Shown here: positions 9,840 through 37,733 of the stretch, piece by piece | How the letters are laid out: every line of letters starts with the position of its first letter | Numbering within the stretch: the stretch's first letter is position 1 | Assembly: GCF_000510645.1 (NCBI RefSeq) | Contig: NZ_KI783301.1 | Location: 503,104 to 567,103 of the forward strand | Direction of reading: 5' to 3' | Length of the DNA stretch: 64,000 bases | DNA from: Thermicanus aegyptius DSM 12793 | GTDB taxonomy: Bacteria > Bacillota > Bacilli > Thermicanales > Thermicanaceae | Notes under the pieces: generated by a model | What the model was told of the DNA's origin: nothing | Seen by the model: only the letters and a program-made list of their open reading frames with translations | Databases searched by the model: none | Program-made: the position numbers and the translations under genes

Positions 9840-10080
9840 GTGAAAACGATGAGGGAGAAGAGTAGATCTTCCGCTCCCTGACAGGGATAAGGGGTCGGCG
9901 ATTGAGAGCCCCTTACAGGTGATGAAGATGGAATTCACTCCTGAGTGAGCCCTTGAACGATTTAGAGTAGAGGGCTACGGTGAGAGCCGTTATCTGTTTG
10001 AGGTGGAGCAGAATATTCTGCTCAATAAGGGTGGTACCGCGAACCTTTCGTCCCTGACGGATGAAAGGTTTTTTTATTTT
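9840..10080 (+). promoter_or_regulatory. T-box leader (phenylalanine-responsive)
   Basis: A tRNA-sensing leader directly before pheS. The invariant T-box AGGGTGGTACCGCG lies at 10028-10041 and is followed at once by the antitermination hairpin. Stem I occupies about 9845-9965. A UUC triplet at 9934-9936 within GATGGAATTCACTCC is the likely Phe specifier codon. Uncharged tRNA-Phe should pair with the specifier and T-box and prevent termination, so pheS and pheT rise when phenylalanyl-tRNA is scarce. Confidence 0.93.
10042..10080 (+). terminator. T-box regulated terminator
   Basis: AACCTTTC (10042-10049) pairs with GAAAGGTT (10063-10070), with an inner TCC/GGA extension and a CTGAC loop, followed by a T-rich tract. 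It is mutually exclusive with the antiterminator formed by the T-box sequence just upstream. Confidence 0.9.
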
Positions 10081-10103: not shown

Positions 10104-11138
10104 ATGAGAGAGAAACTTTTAATACTGGAAGAGGAAGCCATAAAAAGAATTGAAAATACGAAGGATCTCAAGGAGCTTCAGGAAGTTCGGGTCCATTATT
10201 TGGGGAAAAAGGGCTCCTTGACGGAGGTATTAAGGGGAATGGGCCGTTTAAGCCCCGAAGAGCGGCCCGTCATTGGGCAGTTGGCCAACCAGATCCGGGA
10301 TCGGTTGGAGGAAAAACTCGCTTTGAAGGAGAAAGAGTTGGAGGAGAAGGAATTAAATCAAAGGCTCGCTTTGGAGTCCATCGACATCTCTCTGCCCGGG
10401 AGACGACCTCCTCGAGGGGCTCTTCATCCTTTAACCCGCATCATACAAGAGATCGAAGAGATCTTCGTCGGCATGGGGTTTACCATCGCCGAAGGGCCGG
10501 AAGTGGAACTCGATTATTACAATTTCGAAGCCTTAAATCTTCCGAAGGATCATCCTGCCCGAGATATGCAGGATAGCTTCTACATTACCGAAGAGATGCT
10601 TCTGCGTACCCACACCTCCCCTGTGCAGGTGAGGACAATGCAGGCCATGGAAGGGAGGGTGCCTGTGAAGGTGATCTGCCCTGGTGTCGTCTATCGGCGG
10701 GACACGGATGATGCGACTCATTCCCATATGTTCACCCAGGTGGAAGGACTCGTGGTGGATGAGGGGATCCGTATGAGCGATTTAAAAGGCATCCTTCTGA
10801 ACTTTGCGCGGCGTATGTTTGGAGAAGAGACTTCCATTCGTCTCCGCCCAAGCTTCTTCCCCTTTACTGAACCAAGCGCCGAGGTTGATGTGACTTGTTC
10901 CTCTTGTCACGGGACGGGGTGCAGGGTGTGTAAACAAACCGGCTGGTTGGAAATATTAGGATCCGGCATGGTGCATCCCAACGTGTTGGAGATGTCGGGA
11001 TATGACCCGACCCGATATACCGGTTTTGCCTTTGGTATGGGAGTAGAACGGATTGCCATGTTGAAGTATGGTGTAGACGACATACGCCATTTCTACACCA
11101 ATGATCTCCGGTTCATTGGACAATTTGCAAGGCTGTAA
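10104..11138 (+). CDS. pheS: Phenylalanyl-tRNA synthetase alpha subunit
   Basis: 344 residues, full length for bacterial PheS. The N-terminal coiled coil (residues 1-85, rich in E/K/L) binds tRNA. The class II catalytic core contains motif 2 ([21 protein letters not shown]) and motif 3 ([17 protein letters not shown]), plus the Cys-rich [16 protein letters not shown] insert usual in Firmicutes. It charges tRNA-Phe as an alpha2-beta2 tetramer with PheT. The ATG at 10104 is preceded by AAAGGAGGAG. Expression is under the T-box upstream. A 106-base gap separates it from pheT, a little longer than usual. Confidence 0.97.
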
Positions 11139-30422: not shown

Positions 30423-32024
30423 ATGAGATGGTTTTTTCGTGTAATGATAACCGTTTTTGTACTAGGTGCAATCGTTGCAGGATGTTCTTTCAATTCGCCG
30501 CCACAATCAGCCGGTGAAAACGCTGCTCGGGAAAAGTCGATTGTGATCGGGTTACAGGCTGAGCCGACCTCTTTGGATGCCCATCAGATTTCGGATTACA
30601 ATTCCAGCCGGGCAGCGATGGAAATGTATGACCAGCTGGTACAGTTTAAAGATGAGAGTACGGAGATTGAGCCCGATCTAGCGGAAAAGTGGGATGTGTC
30701 CAAGGACGGCTTGGAATACACGTTCTATTTGCGGAAAGATGTCAAGTTTCATGATGGAACTCCTTTTAATGCAGAAGCGGTAAAATTCAGCATTGACCGT
30801 CAAATTGATCCAAAACATCCCTACCATGATTCCGGCCAGTTCGCTTACGCCGAGTTTACGTTTGGCATGGTGGATCATGTGGAGGTGGTGGACGAGTATA
30901 CCGTAAAAATCGTGCTGAAGGAGCCGTATGCTCCGTTTTTAAGCAATTTGGCCATGCACGCAGCCAGCATTGTCAGTCCGACAGCCGTCAAGCAATACGG
31001 AAAGGATTTCTCAAGACATCCGGTCGGAACCGGTCCATTCAAGTTTGTGAGCTGGAATCCCGGGGTAGAAGTGATTCTCGAAAAAAATCCGGAGTATTTT
31101 AAAGGGGCTCCCAAGATCGACAAGCTTATCTTCAAGCCCATTACGGAAGACCAAACCCGTTTGACCGAATTGGAAGCGGGGAATCTGGACTTGATTGTCA
31201 ATGTCCCGCCCGATGACTTGGAAAGGTTGAAGGCAGACCCTAATCTACAGGTGATTGAGCAATCGGGGATGCACGTCTGGTGGACAGCCTTTAATACCCA
31301 AAAGAAACCTTTTAATGATGTACGGGTAAGGCAAGCGGTCAATTATGCCATCAACAAAGAAGCGATCGTAAACGAAATTTTGAAAGGGACGGGGGAACTT
31401 GCCAATTCTCCTTTGCCGCCAAGCATCTGGGGGCATAATCCCAATGTGAAAAACTACGAGTACAATCCGGAAAAAGCAAAACAGCTTTTGGCGGAAGCGG
31501 GTTACCCGAACGGGTTTGAAGTAACGTATGGGGTGCCTGAATCTGGATCGGGCATGCAACAGCCAACCACGATGGCCGCTGCCATCCAAGCGGATCTGGA
31601 AAAAGTAGGCATACGTGTTAAGATACAAACGTTCGAATGGGGATCTTACCTGGATAAGGTTTTTGTACCATACGATCAACAAAAGGATATGGACATGCAT
31701 CAGATGTCCTGGATCGGAGATAACGGGGACCCGGATAATTTCCTCTATATCTTGTTTAGCAGCAAGCAATGGCCGACCGCCGGTTTTAATGATGCTTATT
31801 ACAAGAATGAAGAAGTGGATAAATTGCTGGATGAGGCCCGGGTGACGAATGATAAGAAGAAACGAACCGAACTGTATGAAAAAGCCCAGGAATTGATCTT
31901 AAAAGATGCTCCATGGATTATCGTTGATCATGAAAAACAGATTGTGGTTGCCCAAAAGAACGTGAAAAACTTCAAGCTGCATCCAACGGGAGTTTTCCGA
32001 TTTGCCAATGTCGATGTTGATTAA
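30423..32024 (+). CDS. Peptide ABC transporter substrate-binding lipoprotein
   Basis: 533 residues of the SBP_bac_5 (OppA/DppA/NikA) family. A signal peptide with lipobox VAGC (Cys at about residue 20) anchors it to the membrane. Family text: YTFYLRKDVKFHDGTPFNAEAVKFS, HPVGTGPFKFVSW, and the C-terminal YEKAQELILKDAPWIIVDHE. It captures peptides, or possibly glutathione or nickel-type ligands, for the permeases that follow. ATG 30423 has AAAAAGGGGG upstream. It is separated from the permease gene by 237 bases that contain a structured element. It is about 40 percent similar by eye to the binding protein at 41.3 kb. Confidence 0.92.
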   Translation: MRWFFRVMITVFVLGAIVAGCSFNSPPQSAGENAAREKSIVIGLQAEPTSLDAHQISDYNSSRAAMEMYDQLVQFKDESTEIEPDLAEKWDVSKDGLEYTFYLRKDVKFHDGTPFNAEAVKFSIDRQIDPKHPYHDSGQFAYAEFTFGMVDHVEVVDEYTVKIVLKEPYAPFLSNLAMHAASIVSPTAVKQYGKDFSRHPVGTGPFKFVSWNPGVEVILEKNPEYFKGAPKIDKLIFKPITEDQTRLTELEAGNLDLIVNVPPDDLERLKADPNLQVIEQSGMHVWWTAFNTQKKPFNDVRVRQAVNYAINKEAIVNEILKGTGELANSPLPPSIWGHNPNVKNYEYNPEKAKQLLAEAGYPNGFEVTYGVPESGSGMQQPTTMAAAIQADLEKVGIRVKIQTFEWGSYLDKVFVPYDQQKDMDMHQMSWIGDNGDPDNFLYILFSSKQWPTAGFNDAYYKNEEVDKLLDEARVTNDKKKRTELYEKAQELILKDAPWIIVDHEKQIVVAQKNVKNFKLHPTGVFRFANVDVD

Positions 32025-32065
32025 CAGCGGGAGGAGGGGGGATTTCCCTCGTTAACCATCTATGA

Positions 32066-32240
32066 GTGCCGGGCATGGGTGTGATCTCTAGGATGGATGT
32101 CCCAAACGGTGCTGGCGAGCGCCTACCTTATACAGAGCGTAAGGGTGTCCGTACGGAACAGCCCCGGGAGACGTACCGTCTAGTTCGGGGACCGCATGCT
32201 AGATGATGAGGACGGGGGAATGGCCCCCTCCTATTCGAAT
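32066..32240 (+). ncRNA. Structured RNA, possible 5' fragment of a group II intron
   Basis: The space between the binding-protein and permease genes holds a GC-rich, hairpin-dense block. It opens with GTGCC at 32066, the kind of start group II introns use, then GGCATGGGTGTGATCTCTAGG and a GTCCC, text that resembles intron domain I. Clear local pairs: TCC-GTAC-GGA (32148-32157) and CCCCG/CGGGG enclosing AGAC/GTCT (32163-32190). There is no reverse transcriptase frame and no domain V, so if it is an intron only a 5' piece remains. The alternative is an unknown operon-internal RNA that lowers expression of the downstream genes relative to the binding protein. Confidence 0.4.
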
Positions 32241-32261
32241 GAAAACGGGGAGGAGTCATCG

Positions 32262-33206
32262 TTGGGGATCTATGTTGTGAAACGTCTACTCGCATTGATA
32301 CCCGTTCTGCTCGGCGTAACGATTTTAACCTTCTCCATCATGCATCTTTCTCCGGGGGACCCTGCCAAGATCATTTTGGGTTCCAAGGCGACGGAAGAGT
32401 CTATCCGTCAGCTCCGGGCAGAACTTGGACTGGATCTCCCCATATACCAGCAATATTTGCGCTGGTTGGGAAACATCTTGAGAGGAGATTGGGGGCGTTC
32501 GATTCAGATGAAGATGGAGGTGCTTCCTTTAATCTTGAATAGGTTTGGAGCCACTTTGATTCTCACTTTGGCAAGCGCCGGTTTGGCAACGGTTTTTGGA
32601 GTGCTGTCGGGAATCATAGCTGCCCAAAAGAAGTATACCTGGATTGATCGATTGCTCATGTTGATTGTTCTTGTGGGCTTTGGTATGCCGGTGTTCTGGT
32701 TGGGAATTTTGTTGCAAATCACCTTTGGCTTAAAATTGAATATATTGCCAATTTCGGGTATGTATTCTCCCGGCCAAAACGGTTTTTTGGATCTCTTCAA
32801 ACATCTGATTCTTCCTTCCATCAGCTTGGCTGTCGGTTCGGGGGCAATCATCGCCCGCATGACCCGTTCAAGCATGCTCGAAGTCTTTGGGCAAGACTAT
32901 ATTCGCACCGCACGGGCTAAAGGATTACGGGAGAAAAAAGTCATATACAAGCACGCATTGAAGAATGCATTTATTCCGATTATGACCGTGATCGGGATGC
33001 AGATTGGCTTTTTGTTGGCAGGTGCGGTGTTGGTGGAGATGGTTTTTTCTTGGCCCGGTATCGGCACCTTGATGGTGAACGGAATTTTGGCCCGGGATTT
33101 TCCCTTGGTTCAGGGAATTATTCTCTTTGTTGCAACTTCCTACGTCCTGATCAACTTAGTTGTGGACATTTTGTATGCATATTTGGATCCTAGAATTTCT
33201 TATTAA
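32262..33206 (+). CDS. Peptide ABC transporter permease, DppB type
   Basis: 314 residues with six membrane segments. The N-terminus KRLLALIPVLLGVTILTFSIMHLSPGDPA and the ELGLDLPIYQQYLRWLGNILRGDWG loop are DppB hallmarks; the EAA-type coupling loop DYIRTARAKGLREKKVIYKHALKNA lies near residue 215. TTG 32262 has GGGGAGGAG 6 bases upstream and gives the usual N-terminus; an ATG at 32196 would add 22 hydrophilic residues encoded by the structured block and is less likely. Confidence 0.92.
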   Translation: MGIYVVKRLLALIPVLLGVTILTFSIMHLSPGDPAKIILGSKATEESIRQLRAELGLDLPIYQQYLRWLGNILRGDWGRSIQMKMEVLPLILNRFGATLILTLASAGLATVFGVLSGIIAAQKKYTWIDRLLMLIVLVGFGMPVFWLGILLQITFGLKLNILPISGMYSPGQNGFLDLFKHLILPSISLAVGSGAIIARMTRSSMLEVFGQDYIRTARAKGLREKKVIYKHALKNAFIPIMTVIGMQIGFLLAGAVLVEMVFSWPGIGTLMVNGILARDFPLVQGIILFVATSYVLINLVVDILYAYLDPRISY

Positions 33207-34125: not shown

Positions 34126-34148
34126 AAGCAAAGGGAAGGATGATCCAC

Positions 34149-35006
34149 ATGACTTTTTCCATTGTCGGTTTTGATCCGAAAACAGGAGAATTGGGCGTTG
34201 CCGTCGCTTCCAAATTCCTTGCGGTCGGTTCTTTGGTGCCCTGGGCTAAGGCGGGCGTCGGAGCGGTGGCAACCCAATCGTGGGCTAATGTAGATTATGG
34301 ATACAAAGGCTTGGAACTCCTCGCAAAAGGAAAATCGGCCCAAGAGGTATTAAATCAGCTTGTTGCGGAAGATGAGCACAAGGAAGTTCGACAGGTGGGG
34401 ATGGTCGATGCCATGGGTAATGCGGCAACCTATACCGGGGAAATGTGTTATCCGTGGGCGGGTGGAATTACAGGACCTAATTTTTCTTGCCAGGGGAATA
34501 TCCTGGTGAGTGAAGAAACGGTGAAAGCTATGGCCAATACGTTTCAGCATGCCGAAGGGACGTTGGCCGAACGCTTGCTGAAAGCTTTGTTGGCGGGAGA
34601 GAAAGCAGGAGGGGACAGCCGGGGGAAACAGTCGGCTAGCCTGTTGGTGGTGAAGAAAGGAGGAGGTTATGGCGGAAATCACGACCGCTACATCGACCTG
34701 CGTGTGGATGACCATGCCGAACCTGTAAGTGAATTGCTCCGGATCTATGGATTGCATCAACTTTATTTTAACCGCACTCGTCCGGAAGACCTCTTACCAG
34801 TCGAAGGAGAGTTGAAAACGAGGCTGATGGAATATTTGCTGAAACTCGGTTACGTAAAATCGGTCGAAGTCAATGATCATGAACTGTACGAAGCCGTAAA
34901 ATCATTCCATTTGATCGAGAATTTTGACGAGCGCGTTCAGGAACCGGGTTGGATCGACCGGAAAGTGGTTGAATTTATGGAACAGCTTGTGACGACAAAA
35001 GGGTGA
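34149..35006 (+). CDS. DUF1028-family (Ntn-hydrolase-like) protein
   Basis: 285 residues. The N-terminus MTFSIVGFDPKTGELGVAVASKFLAVGSLVPWA and the ATQSWANVDYG segment identify DUF1028; the last 70 residues add a peptidoglycan-unrelated helical tail (YLLKLGYVKSVEVNDHELYEA). The family has an Ntn-hydrolase fold in known structures, where a Thr or Ser after the initiator Met could act as nucleophile; T2 is present here if ATG 34149 is the start, which has AAGGGAAGG 9 bases upstream. The family often lies in peptide ABC operons, so a role in processing an imported peptide or amide is likely (inference). Biochemical function is not established. Confidence 0.83.
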   Translation: MTFSIVGFDPKTGELGVAVASKFLAVGSLVPWAKAGVGAVATQSWANVDYGYKGLELLAKGKSAQEVLNQLVAEDEHKEVRQVGMVDAMGNAATYTGEMCYPWAGGITGPNFSCQGNILVSEETVKAMANTFQHAEGTLAERLLKALLAGEKAGGDSRGKQSASLLVVKKGGGYGGNHDRYIDLRVDDHAEPVSELLRIYGLHQLYFNRTRPEDLLPVEGELKTRLMEYLLKLGYVKSVEVNDHELYEAVKSFHLIENFDERVQEPGWIDRKVVEFMEQLVTTKG

Positions 35007-37097: not shown

Positions 37098-37196
37098 GTT
37101 CCATCACAGCAGGGGAGCTGAGTCCGCTCGGCTGAGAGGGCACCAAATGGGGTGCCGACCCTTCAACCTGATCTGGGTAATGCCAGCGTAGGGAAC
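37098..37196 (+). promoter_or_regulatory. TPP riboswitch (THI element)
   Basis: The two conserved arms of the thiamine-pyrophosphate aptamer are present: GGGGAGCTGAGTCC with CTGAGAGGG (THI box) and ACCCTTCAACCTGATCTGG with GTAATGCCAGCGTAGGGAA. GTTCC at 37098 closes P1 with GGAAC at 37192-37196. Binding of TPP should shut off the thiamine-precursor importer downstream, through the terminator at 37364-37391 or an alternative pairing in the 165-base stretch between them. Confidence 0.95.
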
Positions 37197-37363
37197 ATCG
37201 ACGCCGCTCTTCATTCTCTTAGTGTTCTACAATTGAGCAGTCTATCCCTATTTCGGGTCTCCGACTCGCACAGATTCGGCGAGTTCGGGAAAGGCCGTAA
37301 CGACTCTTTTCGGGGATGCGCATGACGGGGAACAGGAGAGAATATGTGTGCCATGTACTTACG

Positions 37364-37445: not shown

Positions 37446-37733
37446 GTGCCGATCGTCAATGTGGGGTTTCAAGTGATCCCAAAGACAAAAGAGGGAAACT
37501 CCTATGAGTTGGTGGACAAGGCCATTGAGGTGGTCTCCAAATCGGGGGTGAAGTATGAGGTAGATCCCATGGAGACTGTGATGGAGGGAGAATACGATAA
37601 ACTGATGGAGATTGTGAAGGAAGCCCAGGAGGCGGTCATCGCAGCCGGAGCGCAAGAGACAATGACGTTTATCAAGGTGCATTACCGGCCTGAAGGGGTT
37701 ACGATTGATGAAAAAGTGGCCAAGTATCGCTAA
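37446..37733 (+). CDS. MTH1187-family thiamine-binding protein
   Basis: 95 residues of the small ferredoxin-like YqgV/MTH1187 family (PF01910): VNVGFQVIPKTKEGNSYELVDKAIEVVSKSGVKYEV, split as strand-helix-strand, then METVMEGEYDKLMEIVKEAQEA. Members bind thiamine-type ligands. GTG 37446 with AAAGGAGGT 6 bases upstream is chosen; a longer frame reaching into the terminator hairpin at 37344 is not credible. It overlaps the permease by 26 bases. Its place under the TPP riboswitch with an importer supports a role as a cytoplasmic HMP or thiamine binder. Confidence 0.88.
   Translation: MPIVNVGFQVIPKTKEGNSYELVDKAIEVVSKSGVKYEVDPMETVMEGEYDKLMEIVKEAQEAVIAAGAQETMTFIKVHYRPEGVTIDEKVAKYR

Follow-up and report, generated by a model that had tools for sequence, protein, structure and literature searches.

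The 237-nt spacer (32025-32261) between the solute-binding-protein and permease genes of a peptide ABC-transporter operon very probably (about 0.93) harbours the relic of a class C (IIC) group II intron, internally deleted and decayed, with a length of about 177 nt (32064-32240). Positions refer to the window, i.e. the whole 64-kb stretch of DNA that was analysed. What carries this reading is that both ends are homologous to class C introns, on one strand and in the expected order, that the same genome contains a full relative, and that related operons lack the element. Group II introns are common self-splicing mobile elements of bacteria, and the relic is an ordinary member of an already known type, the decayed truncated group II intron.

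Homology of both ends to class C introns

The upstream gene (30423-32024, + strand) encodes an oligopeptide/dipeptide-type solute-binding protein (SBP_bac_5, E=3.1e-122) and the downstream gene (32262-33206, +) a permease (BPD_transp_1, E=3.8e-47; start by offset analysis), in agreement with the neighbours named in a preliminary description of the block. The permease probably starts with TTG at 32262, because of the Shine-Dalgarno-like GGGGAGGAG and the alignment to relatives. Between its second permease gene and an ATPase gene, the same transporter operon also encodes a DUF1028 protein whose C-terminal domain is putatively peptidoglycan-binding (34140-35006, +). Elsewhere in the window, a TPP riboswitch (RF00059, 59.6 bits, 37101-37211, +) lies downstream of the transporter operon, with the next ORFs at 37705 and 38414, and a T-box leader (RF00230, 124.4 bits, 9840-10058, +) stands directly upstream of a 344-aa ORF (10104-11138).

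We made covariance models from two alignments of related introns, R2 from 12 intron 5' ends (alignment A2) and R1 from 7 intron 3' ends (alignment A1), with the window excluded from both; the reference rows were not all intact introns, as L010 is a truncated copy and L016 is without reverse transcriptase. R2 gave a single match in the 64 kb, at 32064-32152 on the + strand (48.6 bits, E=4.5e-10, a rough value), which corresponds to a class C intron 5' end and the start of domain I. The single R1 match in the window at E<=10 was located at 32173-32234 (+, 36.9 bits, E=7.2e-7, likewise rough). This match, together with alignments (A3 for domain V), delimits a decayed domain V hairpin (32173-32205, +) and a decayed domain VI hairpin with the intron 3' end (32206-32240, +; CCTATTCGAAT vs. 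CCTACTCGAT). The two ends are on the same strand, in canonical order and 20 nt apart, and the gap between the matches (32153-32172, +) marks the deletion junction region when compared with a full-length copy (locus L009).

This was further supported by blastn searches in the same genome (3.66 Mb, one contig), where the 5' part matched 1310525 (80% identity, E=1.3e-10) and 1099602 (79% identity, E=3.0e-9), and, about 1.8 kb downstream of 1310525, the 3' part matched 1312338 (77% identity, E=1.6e-6). A full intron copy, which the preliminary description had proposed looking for, was indeed found at G000:C1:1310516-1312410 (L009 1017-2911). It is 1,895 nt long, matches the D1-D4 families RF02001 (128.8 bits) and RF01998 (61.8 bits) as well as RF00029 in domain V-VI (41.7 bits, gathering score 40), and encodes an intact IEP of 476 aa with reverse transcriptase (RVT_1) and group II maturase (GIIM) domains. 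The intact IEP is located there and not in the spacer, and no reverse transcriptase ORF was found within the 237 nt, as had been described. Relative to the L009 copy, about 1.7 kb is absent from the relic, comprising most of domain I, domains II-IV and the reverse-transcriptase gene, domain I being reduced to its initial ~90 nt. The block had been described as a group II intron 5' fragment with no domain V; the 5' ~90 nt are indeed homologous to class C domain I, but the statement on domain V was wrong, as a decayed domain V-VI is retained at 32173-32240. The relic is therefore better read as an intron with a deleted middle than as a 5' fragment, because domain V-VI is also present.

The boundary motifs agree unequally with this assignment. 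The class C 5' consensus is given as GUNYGCCNRGCAUGG in the parts of PMC4028801 concerned with it, and 14 of its 15 positions were found at 32064-32078 (GAGTGCC...), the mismatch falling within the 5' GU; matches of that quality occur once in the 64-kb window vs. 0.14 expected by chance. Judged from this alignment, 32064 is more likely to be the intron 5' end than 32066, where the block had been taken to begin and where GTGCC, with GGCATGGGTGTGATCTCTAGG directly after it, is present as described. The other border had been set at the ribosome site of the permease gene, and here the relic 3' end near 32240 leaves about 20 nt to the permease start. At 32230, CCTATTCGAA has two mismatches to the class C 3' consensus CCUACYCGAU, a motif that is not significant alone, since it is at chance level in the window (117 matches vs. 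96.8 expected).

Rfam, run on the whole window at gathering score and on the block in E-value mode, reported nothing relevant in the block: the D1-D4 intron families had no match there, and RF00029 gave no report for the relic domain V-VI at E<=10. The covariance-model search that had been proposed as a check thus yielded no family from Rfam, and matches to both ends from the models of related introns. Rfam probably missed the relic because it is short and decayed, and it is recovered once simple models are built from related introns. Both the silence of Rfam and the weak 3' motif nevertheless count against the intron-relic reading.

Copies in the genome and the insertion site

R2 recognised 5' ends at five places in the genome and blastn at one more, and R1 recognised domain V-VI at two, which amounts to a single complete intron, the two-ended relic of the window and four relics with a 5' end only (near 134553, 1099593, 2582391 and 3033373). 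Broken class C copies accordingly outnumber whole ones in this genome, and the 5'-only relics (L010 994-1156, L129, L130 and L011) each follow a hairpin, as seen by eye. Weaker reverse transcriptase-like matches were also observed at G000:C1:1111159-1111719 (35% identity to the IEP) and 315263-315745 (38%; three stops). Sister copies sharing the same deletion were not found in 61 genomes, and a search of 398 genomes from the class, in which the two best candidates of each were scored, gave no other match that spans both ends. R1 alone matched in 126 of 299 genomes class-wide, and other short two-ended relics could be among these. An element of about 1.3 kb that resembles a class C intron (L016 1499-2800, in genome G039) has a 5' end and domain V-VI, no reverse transcriptase ORF and a 228-aa ORF inside on the opposite strand; it is an intron relic that is either cargo-bearing or rearranged. 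Our literature searches returned no title on the window relic.

Class C introns insert 3' of intrinsic terminators, according to passages in PMC4028801, PMC4424553 and PMC8919778. Among the introns collected here, all 21 distinct 5' ends lie downstream of a hairpin or inverted repeat that is followed by a T-rich stretch (by eye, unscored); these derive from 28 rows, in which the window is absent, L011 was omitted and six rows are repeat fetches of the same locus. In the spacer, a short inverted repeat of the GAGGG...CCCTC type (32030-32050, +) directly follows the binding-protein stop codon, and the fold of 32025-32063 (-12.0 kcal/mol) gives a hairpin upstream of the relic that is weaker than those in the orthologs. 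This repeat, at the place where relatives carry a terminator-like hairpin, is the probable target hairpin of the intron. It has no T-run, so that the terminator scan did not report it, and it ends about 13 nt before the relic, farther than in most intact copies; both the missing T-run and this distance count against the intron-relic reading.

The ten loci whose binding proteins are closest to this one (best segments, 69-79% identity) have spacers of 30-148 nt, with starts inferred by alignment, and in nine of them a strong hairpin folds shortly after the stop codon, L045 being the exception. When the 177-nt relic is subtracted from the 237-nt spacer, 60 nt remain, which falls within the ortholog range; the nearest ortholog available for this empty-site comparison has a binding protein that is 79% identical, a distance that counts against the intron-relic reading. 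Across 80 related loci, 582,842 bases in total, R2 had no match at E<=1 and R1 had one, in L059 shortly after the binding-protein match, which at E=0.8 we take as chance. Within the loci compared, the insertion appears to be confined to this lineage. Taken together, these observations suggest that intercistronic hairpins inside operons, and not just end-of-operon terminators, can serve as landing sites for class C introns.

Decay, folding and alternative explanations

The relic has lost 13 of the 49 columns that are invariant in the seven reference 3' ends and 6 of the 40 that are invariant in the twelve reference 5' ends. Its scores are correspondingly reduced compared with the intact copy, which is itself among the model-building rows (R1, 36.9 vs. 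101.6 bits; R2, 48.6 vs. 113.9 bits). In a functional group II intron the catalytic triad of domain V is AGC or CGC. The triad was located as CGC by the RF00029 alignment of L009, and at this place the relic reads CGT, accompanied by a compensatory change in the pairing partner. The 5' GT has become GA, so that the GTNYG motif reads GAGTG. Among the features of a functional intron, complete domains I-IV, the reverse transcriptase/maturase of domain IV and an intact triad are all lacking. With most of domain I gone and both the 5' splice-site motif and the catalytic triad damaged, splicing and mobility of the relic are very unlikely. In the domain V stem one pair is lost and another has changed from C-G to T-A, a compensatory change which could mean that the stem was under selection during part of its history and which counts against the intron-relic reading.

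We propose that a class C intron inserted just 3' of the hairpin in the spacer between the binding-protein and first permease genes, that an internal deletion of some 1.7 kb then removed domains II-IV, the reverse-transcriptase gene and most of domain I, and that point mutations decayed what was left. The product would be a dead relic of 177 nt in which the beginning of domain I runs into a damaged domain V-VI, presumably transcribed within the operon mRNA and, judging from the lost parts, unable to splice or move. Any influence on transporter expression would be passive, via the spacer length and leftover hairpins. The target hairpin, the loss of splicing and the lack of function are what we infer.

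A compact ORF-less group II intron, still splicing or mobilised in trans by the intact IEP encoded elsewhere in the genome, would likewise keep both ends, and the genome does encode a related IEP; bacterial ORF-less introns nearly always occur in genomes with related IEPs, as stated in a section of PMC4424553. However, with only ~90 nt of domain I, no domains II-IV, GAGTG in place of the GTNYG motif and CGT instead of CGC, this explanation has hardly any probability left, and no second copy with the same deletion was seen among the best two candidates of each of the 398 class genomes. An unrelated structured leader RNA, such as a riboswitch or attenuator, that resembles a group II intron by chance would suit an intergenic position inside an operon. 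It is about as improbable: it is already refuted by the two model matches, which are significant, independent of each other and correctly ordered, blastn ties both ends to the intact intron of the same genome, and Rfam gives no regulatory family in the block.

The preliminary description had further suggested that the block, with several nested stems, was kept as a control element. Compared with shuffled sequences, the folding of the whole block (32025-32275, z=-1.17) and of the relic (z=-1.13; 5' part, z=-0.34) was no better than chance, so that of the stems only the domain V-VI part stands out as somewhat more stable (z=-2.26, with 11/500 shuffles as low). No Rfam riboswitch or leader reached its gathering score in the spacer, and the best sub-threshold matches were chance-like. 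A regulatory role of the relic is not supported, because there is no family, no conservation (no convincing match in 80 related loci) and no folding beyond that of shuffles; identification of the block as a regulatory RNA was rejected on the same grounds.

Another reading is that the intron relic is kept as an element of the mRNA between the two genes and tunes termination, mRNA stability or translation there, either through its hairpins or because the domain VI 3' arm pairs with the G-rich arm of the hairpin upstream. Its intergenic position would allow this, the domain V-VI folding beats shuffles and includes the one compensatory pair change, and in an unconstrained fold the domain VI 3' arm does pair with the upstream G-rich arm (-98.5 kcal/mol, vs. 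-82.9 kcal/mol with a maximum pairing distance of 70 nt). Such long-range pairing of G-rich and C-rich stretches is, however, expected from composition, the stability of the whole relic is ordinary, related operons have no convincing counterpart, and four other 5' relics of the same intron kind lie at unrelated places in the genome. We consider retention of this kind improbable, and domestication of the relic as an intercistronic RNA switch in this lineage more doubtful still. If true, the domain VI 3' arm would compete for the G-rich arm of an attenuator hairpin downstream of the binding-protein gene, and the ratio of binding protein to permease would shift in this lineage.

Comparison with known systems

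With the dead mobile-element relic as the preferred reading, the puzzle posed by the block is resolved, and its importance beyond annotation is little. Class C introns such as the L009 copy share with it the domain I start and domain V-VI, and probably the boundary motifs and insertion after a hairpin, whereas the relic is some 1.7 kb shorter, has neither the IEP gene nor the greater part of domain I, and is damaged in its 5' motif and triad. Circularly permuted group II RNAs, as presented in portions of PMC8637638, are likewise group II derived and non-canonical, but in the relic domain I comes before domain V-VI, and this candidate was rejected for the canonical domain order. The group III introns of Euglena chloroplasts are of similar scale, being very short degenerate group II derivatives; they are excised with the help of trans factors and have no domain V, as outlined in part of PMC4424553, whereas the relic has no sign of splicing. 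Truncated copies form the majority of bacterial group II intron copies, according to an excerpt of PMC4028801, and truncated bacterial fragments are, like the relic, partial, decayed and intergenic. The four other relics of this genome retain a 5' end only, whereas the relic in the window keeps both ends around an internal deletion.
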